A program made the position numbers and the translations under genes. From Nitrospirota bacterium (GTDB taxonomy: Bacteria > Nitrospirota > Nitrospiria > Nitrospirales > Nitrospiraceae): a stretch of DNA of 11,345 nucleotides. Where the stretch lies: NCBI GenBank assembly GCA_005877535.1, contig VBOM01000127.1:1-11345 (forward strand), in the 5' to 3' direction. Below the pieces are notes generated by a model that saw only the letters and a list, made by a program, of their open reading frames with translations, had not been told where the DNA came from and did not search any database. Shown in pieces: positions 4,061 through 10,891 of the stretch (positions within the stretch are counted from its first letter, which is position 1; each line of letters opens with the position of its first letter).

Positions 4061-4495
4061 ATGGCGTGGACCTTTCGATTTCTTGAGGATATTGCTATGG
4101 CCGATACTGCCTTCGAAGCTCAGGGGGAGTCGGTCGAGGAGGTCTTTCGCGGCGCGACGCAGGCTCTCCTTGAGAGCATGGCTAACCCTGTCACGGTTTC
4201 GGGAGGATGGGAGCGCGCAATTGAGCGGACCGATGTGGACCCATCGACGTTGTTGTTCGATTGGTTGTCGGAGGTGGTCTACTGGAAAGACGCAGCGGGG
4301 GTGGTCTTTCGAGAGGCACCGCTCACACTGACGCGGGAGGGGGACGTGTGGCTGTTGCGAGCAGGTCTGATCGGCGCACCGGTGGATCAGCAGACACAAG
4401 AACTCCATGCCGATGTGAAGGGGGTCACGAAACATCGGTACGAGCTCAAGCAAACAGGCGGTTCCTGGAAGGTAATTGTGGTGCTCGACGTATGA
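4061..4495 (+). CDS. Archease, activator of the RNA ligase RtcB
   Basis: At 144 aa this is the usual size for archease, a small metal-binding protein that speeds guanylylation of RtcB and lets it turn over many times. Recognisable family features are the N-terminal FRFLEDIAMADTAFEAQG with its acidic metal-site residues, LLFDWLSEVVYWKD (64-77), the 'EL-H-ADVKGVTKHRYEL' block (114-129), and the C-terminal VVLDV, whose aspartate and terminal valine form part of the calcium site in characterised archeases. The start ATG lies 5 bases after the sdhB stop. The rtcB gene follows after 110 bp, so the two very probably act together in RNA repair or processing. Confidence 0.9.
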   Translation: MAWTFRFLEDIAMADTAFEAQGESVEEVFRGATQALLESMANPVTVSGGWERAIERTDVDPSTLLFDWLSEVVYWKDAAGVVFREAPLTLTREGDVWLLRAGLIGAPVDQQTQELHADVKGVTKHRYELKQTGGSWKVIVVLDV

Positions 4496-4513
4496 CCCCT
4501 GCGAGACATGCGG

Positions 4514-4592
4514 GACGAGCGAGGCAAGCGCGACGTGTTCGAGACAGTCGTCTTTCTTACACTTCTCGCTCATCGCGCTTTTCTCGCTAGTC
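4514..4592. repeat. Imperfect inverted repeat between archease and rtcB
   Basis: GACGAGCGAGGCAAGCGCG (4514-4532) pairs with CGCGCTTTTCTCGCTAGTC (4574-4592) at 16 of 19 positions, with a loop of 41 bases. Outer bases (GCGAGACATG at 4501-4510 and TCTCGC at 4591-4596) extend the similarity loosely. It fills most of the 110-bp gap. It could be a small dispersed palindrome, an RNA structure in the leader of rtcB, or an attenuator between the two genes; the sequence does not decide. No T-run follows, so a simple intrinsic terminator is unlikely. Confidence 0.55.
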
Positions 4593-4605
4593 TCGCTCAC
4601 TTGAT

Positions 4606-6057
4606 ATGAATCTCAACACTGACATGGCGGTCAATCGGATTACGGACGACATTTGGGAAATCCCTCTGTCTGAAAAACCCGGGATGCTGGTGCCGGCCAG
4701 GATTTATGCAACCAGGGAGATTCTCCAGGCCATGGATTCCGGGGTCTTCGATCAGGTGACCAATGTCGCCTGCCTACCCGGCATCCGCCGGTATGCGCTC
4801 TGTATGCCTGACGGGCATTGGGGATATGGATTCCCGATCGGGGGTGTTGCGGCGTTCGACGTGCAGGACGGGGTCATCTCTCCAGGCGGTGTGGGATATG
4901 ATATCAACTGCGGCATGCGGCTGATTCGAACAGATTTGACGCTGGCGGACGTGCAGCCTTATCTAGAGACGCTCCTGACCGAGCTCTTTCGAAAAGTGCC
5001 GGCGGGCGTCGGGGCGAGCGGATTTCTTCGGCTCTCGGGGGAGGAATTTGCTCAGGTGATGACCCATGGGGCCCGGTGGTGTGTAGAGAGGGGATACGGG
5101 TGGCATCGGGATCTCGTCCGTATGGAAGAGGGGGGCTGCATCGAGGGCGCCGATCCGTCGATCGTGACCGACCATGCGATCCAACGGGGCATCAACCAAC
5201 TGGGGACCTTGGGCTCGGGCAATCACTATCTTGAAGTCCAGGTGGTCTCGAACGAACGGATATTCGATCCGGTCACGGCTGCGGCGCTCGGGATCACCGG
5301 CCACGAGCAGATCGTCGTGATGGTGCATTGTGGCTCGCGCGGGTTCGGTCATCAGGTTGCGAGCGACTACCTCAAGGTGTTCGAAAAAGCCATGCGCCGC
5401 AATGGCATCACAGTGAAAGATCAGCAGTTGGCCTGTGCGCCGTTTCGATCTCCCGAGGGGCAGGAGTATTTTTCCGCCATGAACTGTGCCGCGAACACGG
5501 CCTTTGCCAATCGCCAAGTCATCACGCATCAGATTCGCGAAGCCTTCGCAACGGTATTCGGTCAGTCCGCCGAGGCACTGGGGATGGAGCTGGTGTATGA
5601 CGTGGCACATAACATCGCGAAGGTGGAGCGGTATGCAGAAGGAGAGTTGGTGGTGCATCGCAAAGGAGCGACCAGGGCGTTTGGGCCGGGAAGTCCTGAA
5701 CTACCAGAAACGTTTCGACAGACAGGCCAGCCGGTAATCTGTGGCGGCTCAATGGAGACTGGCTCGTACCTGCTTGTGGGGACGGATCAAGCGGTGCGTG
5801 ACACGTTCGGGTCGACGATGCACGGGTCCGGGAGAACGATGTCCCGCGCACAAGCGAAGAGAACAGTTCGCGGTGAGCAGCTGCAGCAACAGATGAAACA
5901 GCGCGGCATTCTGGTCAAGGCCGTGTCGATGTCAGGTCTGGCGGAGGAGGCCGGCCTGGCATACAAGAATATTTCTGAAGTGGTGGAGTCGGTCGATCGT
6001 GCGGGAATTACAAAAAAAGTGGCGGAATTGCGTCCGATTGGCAATATAAAGGGGTGA
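4606..6057 (+). CDS. rtcB: RNA-splicing ligase RtcB
   Basis: RtcB is a GTP- and manganese-dependent ligase that joins RNA ends carrying 2',3'-cyclic phosphate or 3'-phosphate to 5'-hydroxyl ends. All active-site residues known from the Pyrococcus enzyme can be matched by context: D99 and C102 in GYDINCGMR, H207 in GSGNHYLE, H241 in VMVHCGSRGFGHQ, H335 in YDVAHNIAKVE, and the guanylate-accepting H406 in TMHGSGRTMSRAQAKR. The 483-aa length is normal and the gene looks intact. The start is uncertain: ATG 4606 and ATG 4624 are in frame and neither has a good ribosome-binding site; the shorter form begins MAVNRITDDIWEIP. The neighbouring archease gene supports the call. Confidence 0.95.
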   Translation: MNLNTDMAVNRITDDIWEIPLSEKPGMLVPARIYATREILQAMDSGVFDQVTNVACLPGIRRYALCMPDGHWGYGFPIGGVAAFDVQDGVISPGGVGYDINCGMRLIRTDLTLADVQPYLETLLTELFRKVPAGVGASGFLRLSGEEFAQVMTHGARWCVERGYGWHRDLVRMEEGGCIEGADPSIVTDHAIQRGINQLGTLGSGNHYLEVQVVSNERIFDPVTAAALGITGHEQIVVMVHCGSRGFGHQVASDYLKVFEKAMRRNGITVKDQQLACAPFRSPEGQEYFSAMNCAANTAFANRQVITHQIREAFATVFGQSAEALGMELVYDVAHNIAKVERYAEGELVVHRKGATRAFGPGSPELPETFRQTGQPVICGGSMETGSYLLVGTDQAVRDTFGSTMHGSGRTMSRAQAKRTVRGEQLQQQMKQRGILVKAVSMSGLAEEAGLAYKNISEVVESVDRAGITKKVAELRPIGNIKG

Positions 6058-6432: not shown

Positions 6433-6530
6433 CAGCAATCGGCCACGCGAGTTCAGTAGCTGACCCTTCTCCCTCTGTGTGTCCCTGTGGTGGATGGCAC
6501 AGGTGTCTGCTCCCGTTCCGCTCCTTGACC

Positions 6531-6724
6531 TAGCCCGCATTATTCATGAACACTTCTGCTGCAATCGCCGATCCGCTGCTGCGACGGGCCTCCAGCCGGC
6601 GGGCTCGCCCCTCGATTCCTCAACGTACTGCACGAGTACGCATCGGGTCCTCAGGGCTCCGCGCGCTGGTCTCGCGACGCGGCTCAGCGATTTCGCGACG
6701 AACCGTCATGAATAATGCGGGCTA
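6531..6724 (-). repeat. 194-bp foldback (MITE-like) repeat, copy 1
   Basis: This copy is bounded by a perfect 19-bp terminal inverted repeat, TAGCCCGCATTATTCATGA at 6531-6549 and its complement at 6706-6724, and is flanked so that CTAG stands at both ends. The centre is a hairpin (CGTACT 6624-6629, five-base loop, AGTACG 6635-6640), and much of the interior also pairs arm to arm. It is inverted relative to the copies at 8284 and 9431; minus is used here only to record that. All three are 194 bp and align without gaps. One strand is open from ATG 6546 to TAG 6725 (59 codons, arginine-rich), but no ribosome-binding site or clear protein-level selection supports it as a gene. No transposase is in the window. 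A non-autonomous mobile element or a structured intergenic repeat is most likely. Confidence 0.85.
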
Positions 6725-6802
6725 GATCTCCCTACATCTGGTACCTCGGAAGATGGGTCGATCATTGCTCGTTCAATTTCGTTTGGGTTCTCTCTGGTTC
6801 AT

Positions 6803-6864
6803 CTGGTCTATCTGGTTTGTTTTGATGATTGAGCCAGCGAAACGAGACAAACCAAACAGACCAG
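6803..6864. repeat. Inverted repeat with CTGGT-rich arms
   Basis: CTGGTCTATCTGGTTTGT (6803-6820) and ACAAACCAAACAGACCAG (6847-6864) pair at 16 of 18 positions around a 26-base loop. The left arm sits in a run of three 9-base units beginning TCTGG (6802-6828 approximately). The arms are AT-richer than the surrounding DNA. It could act as a transcription terminator for the genes upstream, but there is no clean T-run after the stem. It may instead be a small dispersed palindrome. Confidence 0.5.
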
Positions 6865-6903
6865 TGCATCCTGTCGTTTCTCACGCTTTATGATCCCTGC
6901 ACG

Positions 6904-6932
6904 GTGACTTTCCGAAAGGCGGAAGTTATACT
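6904..6932 (+). promoter_or_regulatory. Probable promoter of the coiled-coil protein / sdhE pair
   Basis: GTGACT (6904-6909) and TATACT (6927-6932) are 17 bases apart; the boxes match consensus at four and five of six positions. The spacer begins within a short palindrome, CTTTCCGAAAG (6908-6918), a position where a repressor could act; that role is inference. The start codon at 6974 lies about 35 bases after the expected transcription start. Confidence 0.45.
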
Positions 6933-6960
6933 TCAAATCTAGGGCCCTATCGTTAGAAAT

Positions 6961-6965
6961 GGAGG
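6961..6965 (+). promoter_or_regulatory. Ribosome-binding site fixing the start at 6974
   Basis: GGAGG lies eight bases before ATG 6974, the ideal distance, and overlaps the in-frame ATG at 6959. The earlier ATG would place the ribosome-binding site inside its own coding sequence, so 6974 is the better start. That choice also gives a standard signal peptide beginning MKNYVGRLW. Confidence 0.75.
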
Positions 6966-6973
6966 CGATCGCT

Positions 6974-7423
6974 ATGAAGAATTATGTCGGAAGGTTGTGG
7001 GGGATCGTGGGGATAGGGTTGCTCACCATACCAGTCGTCCTTCCGGCTGGAGCGTCAGATAAGCCTGTGACGGGTGACACAGTTGTACGGGAAGCTCAGG
7101 AGGCGGTGACGGCCACCAAGGACTATACGATTCAGCAAAAAGACGCGTTTCAGCGAAAGGTTCAAACAGAACTGGATGAGATGCAAGTGCGCATCAAGCA
7201 GCTGCGTGGACAAGTCAAGCATGCGTCGGGGGAAGCAAGAGCGGAGATCCAGAAGGCGATCGGGGAATTAGAGAAGAAAAAGGACCTGGCCAGTAAGAAA
7301 GTCGAGGCCATTCAATCCGCAACGGCCTCGTCCTGGGAGCAGGTGAAGTCGAAAACAGAAGCTGCGATGGACGATCTTCGCGATTCTCTCGCAAGGGCCC
7401 GGTCTTATCTCCCGTCACGGTAG
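6974..7423 (+). CDS. Secreted coiled-coil protein of unknown function
   Basis: The 149-aa product begins with a signal peptide: a basic start (MKNYVGR), a hydrophobic core (GIVGIGLLTIPVVL) and a likely cleavage after PAGAS near residue 28. The mature part is almost wholly predicted helix with charged heptad-like repeats (ELDEMQVRIKQLRGQVK, then IGELEKKKDLASKKVEAI), so a periplasmic coiled coil is likely. It ends SLARARSYLPSR. The composition resembles helical apolipoprotein-like or stress-associated periplasmic proteins, but no defined family is recognised. Only four bases separate it from sdhE, which suggests co-transcription; whether it assists the SDH complex is unknown. Confidence 0.75.
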   Translation: MKNYVGRLWGIVGIGLLTIPVVLPAGASDKPVTGDTVVREAQEAVTATKDYTIQQKDAFQRKVQTELDEMQVRIKQLRGQVKHASGEARAEIQKAIGELEKKKDLASKKVEAIQSATASSWEQVKSKTEAAMDDLRDSLARARSYLPSR

Positions 7424-7427
7424 ACCA

Positions 7428-8357
7428 ATGAAATATGCCCTCTACCCCGGTTGTGCGGCCCAAGGGGCGACACCGGAACTGTATCAATCGACGAGGGCGA
7501 TCATCGGCCGATTGGGGATCGAGGTCGTCGAACTCACGGCCGCGGCCTGTTGCGGCGCCGGGGTTGTGACAGAGGCGAATCCCGATATGGCGCTGGCGCT
7601 GAACGCCAGGACGTTTGCGCAAGCGGAGGCGCTTGGACTGGACGTCATGACGATCTGCGGCACCTGTCAAGGAGTGATGAGCGCCGCCAATCGACGATTG
7701 AAGACAGAGGCAGGAACCCTGGAACGCATCAACGCCCTCCTGGCACCAGAAGGTTTGGCCTACCACGGGCAGGTCCAAGTCAAACATCTGTTGTGGATTG
7801 TGGTGCGAGACATCGGGCTGGCTCGCCTGGGCACCCTGGTCTCCGTGCCCATGCGAGACTTCCGCGTCGCCCCGTTTTACGGTTGCTACATCCTGCGTCC
7901 GTCGTGGGATCTAGGATTTGACGATCCTGAGAATCCCCAATCCCTCGAACGCGTCATTAAGGCCGTCGGTGGCGAGCCGGTGGCCTATGCCGGAAGAACC
8001 AAATGCTGTGGGTTTCCCATTATCCTCGAAAAGGAAGCTATTGCCGTGGCCATGGCAGGGACGCACATGAATGAAGCGAAGGAGCAGGGAGCCGACTTTA
8101 TGGTGACGCCCTGTCCGCTCTGTCACATGAGCCTGGATATTTATCAGGATCGGGCTGGTCGTTCCGTGAACCGCGAACTCCACTTACCGATCTTGCATGT
8201 GCCGCAGTTACTTGGTTTGGCGATGGGGCTTCCGGCCAAGGACTTGGGACTCTCGCATCATGTGATCTCGGTCGATTCCATTTTGGCCCGCATTACTCAT
8301 GACGGTTCGTCGCGAAATCGCGGAGCCGCGTCGCGAGACCAGCGCGCGGAGCCGTGA
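7428..8357 (+). CDS. sdhE: HdrB-like subunit of type-E succinate dehydrogenase/fumarate reductase
   Basis: The protein has two cysteine-rich CCG domains, the hallmark of HdrB and of the SdhE subunit of type-E enzymes. The first uses C9, C41-C42-G43 and C77/C80 (YPGC, AACCG, CGTC); the second uses C153, C193-C194-G195 and C229/C232 (YGC, TKCCG, CPLC). In HdrB such domains bind unusual 4Fe-4S clusters; in type-E SDH the subunit takes the place of the usual haem-bearing membrane anchors and joins the enzyme to quinone or to another thiol/disulfide partner. The sdhB gene in this window supports the SDH reading over methanogen-type HdrB. The last 23 residues (from A287) and the stop codon are encoded by repeat copy 2, so the native C-terminus has been replaced. 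The start has no strong ribosome-binding site. The name sdhE is used in the type-E sense, not for the FAD assembly factor. Confidence 0.85.
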   Translation: MKYALYPGCAAQGATPELYQSTRAIIGRLGIEVVELTAAACCGAGVVTEANPDMALALNARTFAQAEALGLDVMTICGTCQGVMSAANRRLKTEAGTLERINALLAPEGLAYHGQVQVKHLLWIVVRDIGLARLGTLVSVPMRDFRVAPFYGCYILRPSWDLGFDDPENPQSLERVIKAVGGEPVAYAGRTKCCGFPIILEKEAIAVAMAGTHMNEAKEQGADFMVTPCPLCHMSLDIYQDRAGRSVNRELHLPILHVPQLLGLAMGLPAKDLGLSHHVISVDSILARITHDGSSRNRGAASRDQRAEP

Positions 8358-8477
8358 GGACCCGATGCGTACTTGTGCAGTACGGTGAGGGTCCGAGGGG
8401 CGAGCCCGCTGGCCGAAGGCTCGTCGTAGCAGTGGATCGGCGATTGCAGCAGAAGCGCTCATGAATATTGCTGGCTC
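8284..8477 (+). repeat. 194-bp foldback (MITE-like) repeat, copy 2, overlapping the sdhE 3' end
   Basis: The element aligns without gaps to the copies at 6531 and 9431, with identity near 90 percent by hand alignment. Its terminal repeats are the most decayed: the left reads TGGCCCGCATTACTCATGA (8284-8302) and the right TCATGAATATTGCTGGCTC (8459-8477), so the TA ends are lost and this is probably the oldest copy. The central hairpin is CGTACT (8368-8373), loop TGTGC, AGTACG (8379-8384). The first 74 bases are translated as the end of SdhE. Read on the minus strand, the 59-codon frame is open here too, but its terminal stop is mutated and it runs into sdhE antisense. Confidence 0.85.
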
Positions 8478-8479
8478 AA

Positions 8480-8495
8480 CGACGCTTGATCGTCG
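8480..8495. repeat. Short hairpin before the cupin gene
   Basis: CGACG, a six-base loop, then CGTCG. It lies just past repeat copy 2 and 37 bases before the cupin start. The stem is short and no T-run follows, so it is noted only as possible leader structure. Confidence 0.3.
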
Positions 8496-8532
8496 TCGAA
8501 CGCAGCCGCAACCATTCTGAAGGAGTTGGCGA

Positions 8533-8853
8533 ATGAACGTGGTAAATATATCGGACTATCAAGAGTTTAGCATGGAGAAGATGAAGAAGAACAATATGTT
8601 TAAGACACCACGATTCTTCTGCGACATCTACTGCTTTGAGCCAGGGCAGGAACAGAAGGGGCATATCCACGGCGAGCAGGATAAGGTCTATCTCGTGCTT
8701 GAGGGACAGGGCACGTTTCAGGTCGGCTCAGAGAAACAGGTGCTTGGTCCAGGGCAGGGAACCATGGCGCAGGCCGGGGAAGAGCATGGCGTGAAGAATC
8801 ACACAGGCCAGCGCCTCAAAGTATTCGTGTTCGTGGCGCCTAATCACTCTTGA
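8533..8853 (+). CDS. Small single-domain cupin protein
   Basis: The 106-aa product is one cupin barrel. Motif 1 is PGQEQKGHIHGEQDKVYLVLEG, with H44 and H46 as metal ligands and D50 at the place normally held by glutamate (E48 is also near). Motif 2 is AGEEHGVKN with H85. A metal-binding fold is therefore likely, but substrate and reaction cannot be told from sequence; such small cupins include sugar isomerase-like, dioxygenase-like and sensor proteins. AAGGAG at 8520-8525 is an excellent ribosome-binding site seven bases before the ATG. The gene follows repeat copy 2 and is convergent with the DUF5069 gene. Confidence 0.85.
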   Translation: MNVVNISDYQEFSMEKMKKNNMFKTPRFFCDIYCFEPGQEQKGHIHGEQDKVYLVLEGQGTFQVGSEKQVLGPGQGTMAQAGEEHGVKNHTGQRLKVFVFVAPNHS

Positions 8854-8857
8854 AGAC

Positions 8858-8887
8858 GTGAATCGTTAAAGGTGAAACGTTCAAGGG
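8858..8887. repeat. Short direct repeat in the convergent gap
   Basis: GTGAATCGTTAAAG is followed at once by GTGAAACGTTCAAG, matching at 12 of 14 positions. It lies between the 3' ends of the cupin and DUF5069 genes. No terminator-like hairpin was found in this 81-base gap. Confidence 0.35.
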
Positions 8888-8934
8888 CTAGAGCAGGCAT
8901 GTATGACGAGTCAATCCCTACTGTGCCCGACTGA

Positions 8935-9363
8935 CTATCTTTTAGGAACTGCCCGACCCTCTTCTAAGTCTTGGAGGTCGGCCCAGCTGGTGAGGTCGGT
9001 TCGGGAGGGATCGGCTGCGTCTCTGAGCTTGTTGAAGTATTCCTGCTTCTTTGGAGTACTCGGTCCGCGGGTCAACATCATCCGGTTCCATGCTTCCAAC
9101 TCGACTGGAGGACGTGCCTTCGCCGTCTGGGTGAACCATTTTGCCACTGCTTCGTCTGATGGATTGGCTTTGACGGCTGCGGTGAACTCTTCGGCCCTGA
9201 TGCCTGCGAACTCCATGAGCCGCTCATCCATCGGGCAGGGGTAGATGTATTCGCCTTCGGTGCCGGCCAGCACGGCGCGGCATTTATCGATCATCCGCGC
9301 CAGATGGACATACCCCTCCAGCGTGACGCGCATACTGTGCGGAAATGATCTTCGAAGATCCAT
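8935..9363 (-). CDS. DUF5069-domain protein
   Basis: The frame can be read from 9420, but the family-like sequence begins at the ATG at 9361-9363 with MDLRRSFPHSMRVTLEGYVH, matching the DUF5069 opening 'L...PRSP...LgGyvhLaRmiDK'. GGAAG lies upstream at a usable distance. The 142-aa protein continues ARMIDKCRAVLAGTEGEY, then CPMDERLMEFAGI and 'EEFTAAVKANPSDEAVAKWF', all typical of the family. No biochemical function is established for DUF5069; there is no signal peptide or membrane segment, so it is probably cytoplasmic. The C-terminal half (QEYFNKLRDAADPSRTDLTS) is also family-like, and the gene appears intact. Confidence 0.8.
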   Translation of the reverse strand: MDLRRSFPHSMRVTLEGYVHLARMIDKCRAVLAGTEGEYIYPCPMDERLMEFAGIRAEEFTAAVKANPSDEAVAKWFTQTAKARPPVELEAWNRMMLTRGPSTPKKQEYFNKLRDAADPSRTDLTSWADLQDLEEGRAVPKR

Positions 9364-9389
9364 TGAGCTTCCGCGCGCGCTTGCCTTCG

Positions 9390-9410
9390 CCTCTCCACTT
9401 GTGGGGGAGG
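9390..9410. repeat. Hairpin upstream of the DUF5069 start
   Basis: CCTCTCCAC (9390-9398) and GTGGGGGAGG (9401-9410) pair with one mismatch or bulge across a two-base gap. It sits in the presumed leader of the DUF5069 gene, between its ATG and repeat copy 3. It may be a small palindromic repeat or a structure affecting translation. Confidence 0.35.
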
Positions 9411-9430
9411 GGGTAGGCATGTAGGATCGC

Positions 9431-9624
9431 TAGCCCGCAATATTCATGACGGTTCGTCGCGAAATCCCTGAGCCACGTCGCGAGACCGGCGGGCGGAGCT
9501 CTGAGGACCCGATGCGTACTCGTGCAGTACGGAGAGGGTCTGAGGGGCGAGTCCGCCGGCCGAAAGCTCGTCGTAGCAGCGGCTCGGCGATTGCAGCAGA
9601 AACACTCATGAATAATGCGGGCTA
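9431..9624 (+). repeat. 194-bp foldback (MITE-like) repeat, copy 3, abutting the DUF3386 stop
   Basis: Ends are TAGCCCGCAATATTCATGA (9431-9449) and TCATGAATAATGCGGGCTA (9606-9624), a 19-bp inverted repeat with one mismatch. The central hairpin is CGTACT (9515-9520), loop CGTGC, AGTACG (9526-9531), flanked by further pairing such as CCGGCGG (9486-9492) with CCGCCGG. It has the same orientation as copy 2. Its last three bases, read on the minus strand, are the TAG stop codon of the DUF3386 gene. The 59-codon frame seen in copy 1 is open here on the minus strand, and the plus strand is also open from the ATG near 9447 to a TAA at its right end. Confidence 0.85.
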
Positions 9625-10302
9625 AATCAATTTGTGATTCGTGAACGTCAAGTTCTTCACGATCACTTCGCCGTTTTCGTATGTAATGATGCGGCGGGTG
9701 GCCGGCAGATCCGATGATCCGACGCGCACATGGGTGTCGGTGAAGCTTTCTACGTTGGTCAGTTTCCCGTCGGTGGGTGAATAGTAGTACACGCAGTATT
9801 TCGTCGTCAGATTCTTCTGGTCTTGCGTCACCGCGCTCTCTTCCACGTTTATCGTAAAGGCAAAGGGGGTCATGCCGGGGTGCGCCATCTTGCGATTAAT
9901 CTGGGTAATGCGATGGTCTTTAAGGCGATAGAACGAGTTCGACCCATGGATGATTAGTTTTGCGCCTAATGGGTGCCCGTCCTCTTCCTTGGTCAATGAG
10001 TACTTGCCGTCCGATTCCTCGAAGGTTCTTGGCCCACGGTGCACCGCGATCATACCGAGCTGTTCCTGCACCCACTTCTGCACGTCGGTCTCTCCCAGTT
10101 GGACCGATACATCACGAGGGCCTTTCACCTTGACGGATCCGCTGGTTTCCTTCCCGTTTAGATTCACTGTCAGGTCGGCAGTGAATCCCTTAAAGTCTTT
10201 CTGCCACCGCGCGGTCTTTTCGAAGGCTTGCCGTAGCAGCTCGCGGGCCTTCGGATCGTCGGCGACTGTGGTTTGTTCTTCTTTCCGTTGATGCTGTTCC
10301 AT
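9622..10302 (-). CDS. DUF3386-like protein
   Basis: The 226-aa protein fits the DUF3386 family, best known from cyanobacteria: an opening helix 'PKARELLRQAFEKTARWQKDFKGFTADL', then a beta-rich body with NGKETSGSVKVKG, LKDHRITQINRKM, and a late TDTHVRVGSSDLPATRRII. No enzymatic residues or function are established for the family. There is no signal peptide, so a cytoplasmic place is inferred. AAGGAG (complement of 10311-10316) precedes the ATG at a good distance. The stop codon TAG is made by the end of repeat copy 3, so the native C-terminus may have been slightly altered by insertion. Confidence 0.75.
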   Translation of the reverse strand: MEQHQRKEEQTTVADDPKARELLRQAFEKTARWQKDFKGFTADLTVNLNGKETSGSVKVKGPRDVSVQLGETDVQKWVQEQLGMIAVHRGPRTFEESDGKYSLTKEEDGHPLGAKLIIHGSNSFYRLKDHRITQINRKMAHPGMTPFAFTINVEESAVTQDQKNLTTKYCVYYYSPTDGKLTNVESFTDTHVRVGSSDLPATRRIITYENGEVIVKNLTFTNHKLI

Positions 10303-10492: not shown

Positions 10493-10891
10493 ATGGAACG
10501 ACGGGCTGCTTCCCATACCGAAGAGGAAGAGATGAACCATCGCCGCCGGTTGCTGAATGCCGCGAAGAAAGGCGATCAAAAGGCCATTGGTAAGCTCTTA
10601 GAGCTCTATCAAGTGCGGATCTACAGTGGCGATATGGTGACGAAAATGAATAAGACATCCGCGACACACAAACTTCAGGCTCAGCTCGCGGAAGGGAAAC
10701 CAGTGAAGGGTGGGCCGGGAAGTCATGGCAAGAAGACTCCGCCTGCGAAGTCCGCTCCAGCGAAACTCAGACATGCGAAGTCGACTCCAGCGAAACGCAC
10801 ACCTGCGAAAGCCGCAGCGCGTCGGCCCATTGTGAAGGCAAAGCCAAAATCTCGGCCAGCCAAAGCAGCTCGAAAGAAACACAAGAAGTAA
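10493..10891 (+). CDS. Small protein with histone H1-like basic tail
   Basis: This 132-aa protein has two parts. Residues 1-65 form a charged helical head (MNHRRRLLNAAKKGDQKAIG, then KLLELYQVRIYSGDMV), loosely like small helix-bundle heads. Residues 70-132 are a disordered, strongly basic tail built of S/T-P-A-K and A-P-A-K units ending KKHKK. Such tails occur in bacterial histone H1-like and other nucleoid or ribosome-associated proteins, so nucleic-acid binding is the natural guess but is not shown. AAAGGA at 10482-10487 supports the ATG at 10493. A TATACT at 10442-10447 could be a -10 box but no matching -35 box was found. It is divergent from the DUF3386 gene and convergent with the ClpS-like gene. 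Confidence 0.75.
   Translation: MERRAASHTEEEEMNHRRRLLNAAKKGDQKAIGKLLELYQVRIYSGDMVTKMNKTSATHKLQAQLAEGKPVKGGPGSHGKKTPPAKSAPAKLRHAKSTPAKRTPAKAAARRPIVKAKPKSRPAKAARKKHKK
10745..10813 (+). repeat. 30-bp tandem repeat encoding the PAK tail
   Basis: Two full 30-base units (10745-10774 and 10775-10804) and a 9-base partial unit, each starting GCGAAG or GCGAAA, encode AKSAPAKLRH, AKSTPAKRTP and the start of a third. In-frame units mean the tail can lengthen or shorten by slippage without shifting the frame. Confidence 0.7.

Follow-up and report, generated by a model that had tools for sequence, protein, structure and literature searches.

Repeats of 194 bp with IS1380-family ends in Nitrospiraceae genomes: a probable family of non-autonomous mobile elements

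Three copies of a 194-bp repeat in one contig

Contig VBOM01000127.1 of a Nitrospirota bacterium (family Nitrospiraceae, assembly GCA_005877535.1) carries three copies of a 194-bp palindromic repeat. We refer to the whole stretch analysed, 11,345 nt in length, as “the window”. Copy 1 has a PilZ gene on one side and a small gene on the other; the places of the other two copies, both at the ends of genes, are given in Table 1. Here, we describe the spread of the repeat, its target sites, its ends, and its core. The repeats very likely represent a non-autonomous miniature inverted-repeat transposable element (MITE) that has the ends of IS1380-family insertion sequences (ISs) and was moved by an IS1380-type transposase into YTAR sites (Y, pyrimidine; R, purine).

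An earlier reading, made from the sequence alone (the “sequence-only reading”), described most features of the three copies correctly. They are real, gap-free over 194 bp, and 88–91% identical (copies 2 and 3, 89% over 194 nt; copies 1 and 3, 88% over 201 nt; copies 1 and 2, 91% over 191 nt). The 19-bp terminal inverted repeats are perfect in copy 1, where the extended arms match at 96% over 23 nt. The central CGTACT/AGTACG is visible in all three copies, and TA is present at both ends of copies 1 and 3. The left and right target 4-mers of copy 3 (CTAG/CTAA) differ by one base. The claim that the two arms resemble each other over most of the length holds for base-pairing with bulges, but not for an ungapped comparison, in which the computed consensus matches its own reverse complement at 51% of positions. 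When copy 3, the one copy folded singly, was folded as a single strand, it formed a hairpin from end to end (z = −7.0 for RNA of the + strand, −6.3 for RNA of the − strand, and −4.9 for DNA of the + strand), with 0 of 200 shuffles equally stable in each of the three cases.

Table 1. Repeat copies, flanking target sequences, and neighboring genes in the window
Feature	Position	Strand	Remarks
MITE copy 1	6531..6724	-	orientation opposite to that of copies 2 and 3; 19-bp ends match perfectly
Left CTAG of copy 1	6530..6533		half of a putative 4-bp target duplication
Right CTAG of copy 1	6722..6725		
MITE copy 2	8284..8477	+	decayed ends (TTGG left, CTCA right); within 3′ end of CCG/HdrB-like gene
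MITE copy 3	9431..9624	+	on stop codon of DUF3386 gene
Left CTAG of copy 3	9430..9433		
Right CTAA of copy 3	9622..9625		TTAG on - strand; its TAG is the DUF3386 stop
CCG-domain (HdrB-like) gene	7428..8357	+	Pfam PF02754; last codons and stop from copy 2
DUF3386 gene	9622..10302	-	ends in duplicated target of copy 3

Abundance and spread

The sequence-only reading expected that a MITE would have many dispersed copies, and this is what was found, both in the same genome and in its relatives. The assembly (G000; 2.33 Mb in 505 contigs, 79.8% complete) contains 46 + 49 matches to the 19-bp end pattern with ≤3 mismatches, as compared to 0 for the reversed control. A BLAST search of this genome with copy 3 gave at least 50 matches (40 of 70 candidates scored); among the matches listed, 15 span ≥165 of the 194 bases, 11 of them with ≥81% identity, query included. 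Matches to the whole element (E ≤ 1e-20) occur in 114 of 172 genomes of the family, representing 17 of 22 genera; these are numbers of genomes with a match rather than of copies, with generally ≤4 candidates scored per genome. The 19-bp end pattern, with ≤2 mismatches, is found in 62 of 100 genomes, the source genome included. From the fetched loci, 174 distinct copies were collected (≥150 aligned bases, 40 bp of flank). The projected length is exactly 194 bp for 131 of these, and their mean pairwise identity is 88%. The element has no match in plasmid and phage collections.

The ends reach further than the element. Among the matches listed, the exact 19-bp end is found in contigs assigned to Gammaproteobacteria, Myxococcota, Acidobacteriota, Planctomycetota, and other groups, in several of them on elements that differ in length and core; phylum labels on metagenome bins can be wrong. 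Some contigs labelled as other phyla (L135, L141, L187, L195, L197, and others) hold elements of MITE size that combine these 19-bp ends with unrelated cores. The ends in these contigs suggest a wider population of IS1380-type MITEs. Within the source genome, two inverted ends lie back to back at G000:C206:2764-2974, with the TA between them common to both; this looks like one element inserted at the end of another.

Empty sites and insertion times

A comparison of filled and empty sites, also proposed in the sequence-only reading, identified at least one relative with an empty site for each of the three copies in the window. For copy 1, a single relative (G006) aligns across the site; it is empty and reads GACC-AA-GACC, i.e., with AA at the expected TA position. 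Two further loci stop short of the junction. For copy 3, six loci align across and all are empty, the best of them with TTAG in the element's place; the left flank aligns poorly in five of the six, and one further locus stops short of the junction. For copy 2, 25 of 26 relatives have the native C-terminus of the gene that it interrupts (e.g., ATLERRRTHPQPS), and an insertion at this place is found in G030 only (1 of 26). In a one-strand alignment of the same site, 14 relatives align across, of which 13 are empty and 1 is filled. Because copy 2 is common to G030, it is probably the oldest of the three. The suggestion that the copies were inserted at separate times is supported as far as these alignments go: copy 2 has a counterpart in G030, whereas the sites of copies 1 and 3 are unoccupied in the small number of relatives aligned there (1 and 6 loci, respectively).

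Target site and its duplication

The 131 gap-free copies were clustered by their flanks, leaving 118 independent copies. For positions 1 and 4, and likewise for whole 4-mers, agreement between the left and right YTAR exceeded that in all 5000 shuffles. Positions 2 and 3 are almost fixed and show no excess agreement, and the six adjacent positions outside the YTAR block show no clear left-right excess in the 118 copies. Identical 4-mers flank 51 of the 118 copies (shuffled mean, 27%), including 32 with CTAG/CTAG, 16 with TTAG/TTAG, and 2 with CTAA/CTAA. The 4-bp signal was also present, though weaker, in an initial test on the flanks of 129 elements that had been selected for their ends. Duplication of a 4-bp YTAR, in most cases CTAG or TTAG, accounts for the flanks better than duplication of TA alone.

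The sequence-only reading had raised a TA duplication of the Tc1/mariner-IS630 type. A related possibility is a 2-bp duplication of TA within YTAR, as for IS711. TA is indeed present at both ends, many copies have a YTAR context with C/G inside both ends, and a 2-bp duplication fits the 13 CTAG/CTAA and 11 TTAG/CTAG pairs among the 118 copies. The 16 independent TTAG/TTAG pairs argue against it, as do two associations between outer and inner bases: the left outer base is T in 21 of 27 copies with a right inner T (p = 3e-8), and a left inner A is paired with a right outer A in 7 of 8 (p = 3e-4). Together with this covariation of the flanks at the outer positions of the 4-bp block, the ends, which belong to IS1380 elements (see below), make either form of TA-only duplication improbable (IS630 transposases were not searched for). 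The half-matching pairs may reflect inner bases that are at times derived from the donor, or a mixture of 2-bp and 4-bp events. If insertion were random in orientation, the TTAG/TTAG and CTAA/CTAA pairs would be equally frequent; the TTAG/TTAG excess and the half-matching pairs may stem from an effect of orientation or from duplications of mixed length (2 and 4 bp).

IS1380 ends and a candidate transposase

A search for an IS with the same ends, as the sequence-only reading had suggested, led to the IS1380 family. A profile search with PF13701 across 61 genomes, including the source genome, identified an intact 467-aa transposase in one relative (G014), scoring 394 bits with the NCBIfam IS1380 model (cut-off, 180) and 429 bits with Pfam PF13701. 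Its gene lies inside a 1713-bp element, one end of which, TAGCCCGCATTATTCATGA, is identical to the MITE end at 19 of 19 positions; the second end is an inverted copy with 4 mismatches. With the G014 protein as the query, matches were found in 21 of 175 genomes of the family, 2 of these in the same genus as the source genome. Eleven fetched loci match >80% of the protein (L101-L108, L116, L117, and L122). Both ends are present in nine of these, bounding elements of 1697–1743 bp, with ≤4 mismatches to one of three end variants; in one of the nine, the right end is identical to the 19-bp MITE end. L102 has one end only, and L117 has none. Five distant PF13701 matches (L056, L057, L059, L067, and L068) have no such ends at ≤5 mismatches.

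Similar ends occur on plasmids, where 684 records match the G014 protein. In the four annotated IS1380 elements that were fetched, the end-to-end match is 18/18 bases for Acidovorax, 16/18 for Sphingobium, and 14/18 for Microvirga, the last being one among several 14-base pairs and picked for its likeness. In these three, both ends start with CTAGCC. The best end pair of an IS1380A copy (L281) is of another type. The MITE and the IS elements have 19–23 bp in common at their ends, rising to 28 bp at 89% identity with L055, and both MITE arms are closer to the right end of the IS. An origin by simple deletion within an IS was considered and rejected, since the similarity is confined to the ends and short stretches.

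A further suggestion of the sequence-only reading was that the repeats resemble repetitive extragenic palindromes (REPs) or bacterial interspersed mosaic elements (BIMEs), i.e., short palindromes with a REP-associated tyrosine transposase (RAYT) as a partner. The repeats are palindromic, often intergenic, and abundant, and Y1 transposases were found in 33 of the 61 genomes searched, but not in the source genome. The length (194 bp), the inverted ends of 19 bp, the defined target, and its duplication all speak against this class; REPs are not known to have such features. Spread by RAYT was rejected, with a probability that we put close to nil: Y1 transposases leave the duplication unexplained, and the IS1380 ends contradict it.

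The core of the element

The core shows no sign of coding capacity. No reading frame is open in clearly more of the 131 copies than in the null (the largest excess is 25 versus 19.4 ± 4.2), and there is no codon-position signal in the same copies. The two arms of the hairpin do appear to change together: in the consensus structure of the 131 copies, 145 cells are changed on both sides of a pair, as compared to a shuffled mean of 36 and maximum of 53, with shuffles that ignore relatedness among copies, and to 22–59 when the partners are slid.

These pair changes, the near-constant length (131 of 174 copies are 194 bp), and the very stable fold would suit a functional RNA or regulatory hairpin that is kept in place by selection and is not mobile. 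Several observations make such an immobile hairpin highly improbable. First, the 131 gap-free copies fall into 118 flank clusters, and empty sites exist. Second, paired and unpaired positions, with the ends excluded, do not differ significantly in variability (p = 0.48). Third, there is no Rfam match at the gathering score. Fourth, there is no strong preference for gene orientation among 73 copies flanked by genes (47 tandem, 15 divergent, and 11 convergent, using a home-made gene finder); a terminator-like or orientation-biased role was rejected on the same grounds. The hairpin may serve in transposition, in RNA folding, or in neither.

One site suggests that cores can be replaced. At the copy-2 site, G030 and the source genome have unusual end bases in common (TGGCCC, ATTACTCATGA, and ATATTGC). 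The elements themselves are 73% identical, whereas the flanks are 86% and 87% identical, and the G030 core resembles that of a different, 198-bp element of the source genome (L024), with 77% identity over 139 bp. This one case suggests that the core in G030 (L257) was exchanged in place by gene conversion; alternatively, there may have been a second insertion at the same spot.

Placement at stop codons

Copies 2 and 3 both lie at the end of a gene; through copy 2, the CCG/HdrB-like protein has gained a new C-terminus, RITHDGSSRNRGAASRDQRAEP. Placement relative to stop codons was examined across the 118 independent copies using home-made gene calls. A coding frame reaches the element on 58 of 233 sides with ≥200 bp of flank. 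In 43 of these, the TAR of the duplicated YTAR is the stop codon of that frame, with 8 and 7 in the other two frames (p = 3e-10). Of the 113 copies with 500 bp to either side, 37 are at a stop, 14 are read through, and 62 are neither. Natural YTAR sequences in the same flanks (n = 393) divide into 27 stop, 138 read-through, and 228 neither, and those in 62 Nitrospira-labelled loci (n = 1151) into 90, 544, and 517. For stop versus neither, the odds ratio relative to YTAR of the same flanks is 5.0 (p = 2e-8). It is 3.4 (p = 7e-7) when every YTAR in the 62 loci serves as the control and 2.4 (p = 0.002) when the control is limited to their CTAG sites; this enrichment would shrink if the “neither” controls hide unrecognized genes. 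Elements of other lengths (121, of which 105 usable) gave 33 stop, 19 read-through, and 53 neither by copy, and 40, 14, and 6 by side; only identical flanks were removed from this set, such that some members are perhaps related, and some are in other phyla, outside the scope of the codon model.

The simplest reading of the excess is that YTAR holds TAG and TAA, and that insertion at such a stop codon would be harmless: because the duplicated YTAR keeps the gene's stop, such sites are safe. A bolder reading, which we regard as rather unlikely, is that IS1380-type machinery actively prefers stop-codon YTAR, for instance because of the local structure of gene ends or of replication or transcription there. 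Such sites would then be general docking sites, with cores exchanged in place via common 40-bp arms and with sites outliving their contents.

Two other features of the window lie apart from the repeats. At 4061-6057, downstream of a gene for an iron-sulfur protein, an archease gene neighbors that of an RtcB RNA ligase. At 10744-10803, the part of a small protein gene that encodes its basic tail, rich in Lys and Ala, contains a 30-bp direct repeat (83%).

A model for mobilization

The repeats are 194 bp long without a transposase gene, have ends in common with an autonomous element, and are dispersed with empty sites, all as for a MITE; the IS1380-type inverted repeats and the 4-bp duplication block are as for the IS1380 family. 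The sequence-only reading's suggestion of a MITE is thus supported by the dispersed copies, the empty sites, the duplicated target, and the existence of an IS family whose ends match; its suggestion of a TA duplication of the Tc1/mariner-IS630 type is not supported. In the proposed mechanism, mobilization would occur in trans: an IS1380-type transposase, encoded by a full-length element that is or once was present in the cell, would recognize the 19-bp ends and insert the element at YTAR, in most cases with duplication of the 4-bp target. The core is a long imperfect hairpin with arms that change together, without sign of coding and outside the compared IS elements. Copies would survive mainly outside genes. 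Where YTAR is a stop codon (YTAG or YTAA), as for about a third of copies, the duplication would leave the gene its stop.

Four observations weigh against the IS1380-type MITE interpretation. First, unequal 4-mers flank 67 of the 118 copies, window copies 2 and 3 among them, and the CTAG/CTAA and TTAG/CTAG pairs counted above are a misfit with plain 4-bp duplication followed by little decay. Second, a search of the source genome, at 79.8% completeness, detected no relative of the G014 transposase. Third, since G014-type proteins were found in only 21 of 175 family genomes, most MITE carriers are without a detected partner. Fourth, beyond the ends, only short stretches (e.g., 17 bp with L103) are in common with 10 IS sequences, nine complete and one shortened.

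The interpretation gives the unlabelled palindromes of Nitrospira, a group of nitrite oxidizers and comammox bacteria, a name and a likely mover. Because YTAR contains TAG and TAA, a 4-bp duplication would amount to a built-in means of settling harmlessly at gene ends, and the stop-codon counts make this idea testable for other YTAR elements, e.g., those of the IS5 type.

Comparison with known systems

The repeats appear to add a new member to a known kind of element, the IS-derived MITE. In the parts of the literature covered, which exclude most subscription content and include PMC11578231, PMC4133298, PMC9330008, PMC9208149, PMC3281130, PMC3542288, PMC12542641, PMC9012009, PMC4549789, PMC10272864, and PMC13383857, no IS1380-type MITE or Nitrospira MITE family is described. 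A search with the 19-bp end sequence returned no paper. As far as the covered part of that source goes, MITEs have been predicted on bioreactor contigs with DxmA-like genes, not in Nitrospira (PMC12542641).

The closest relatives are IS1380-family elements, which have a target duplication and, in three of four annotated plasmid elements, CTAGCC...TATTCA-type ends. The MITE differs in its 194-bp length, its lack of a transposase gene, its unrelated interior, and its two arms, both of which resemble the right end of the IS; the ends of the IS1380A copy examined differ from those of the MITE. Tabulated target duplications in the family are 4–5 bp (ISPa33, 4; ISPsp9, 5; Table 1 of PMC4133298), and that of IS1247 is 5 (Table 2 of PMC3281130).

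Other elements resemble the repeats in target, size, or structure. IS711 is a member of the IS5 family. In the portions consulted, IS5 and IS711 have YTAR as their target (PMC10359306, PMC2266754), and IS711 appears to duplicate the TA within it (PMC2266754); by contrast, the MITE ends match IS1380 elements (IS5-type ends were not compared). Correia elements (CREE/NEMIS) are likewise small, mobile, inverted-repeat elements with TA at their ends (PMC2229807, in part), but differ in ends, hosts, and sizes (end sequences were not compared). MITEPye1 of Paracoccus is IS-derived, folds into a long stem-loop, and prefers intergenic regions, but is described, in the part covered, with IS1182 ends and 1–3 copies in chromosomes (PMC11578231). 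MITEAba12 of Acinetobacter is mostly 113 bp, with ISAba12 ends and a 9-bp duplication, but, according to the sections covered, it too combines the ends of a known IS with a near-constant length, and one of its copies is fused to the 3′ end of a gene, supplying the stop codon (PMC6382973).

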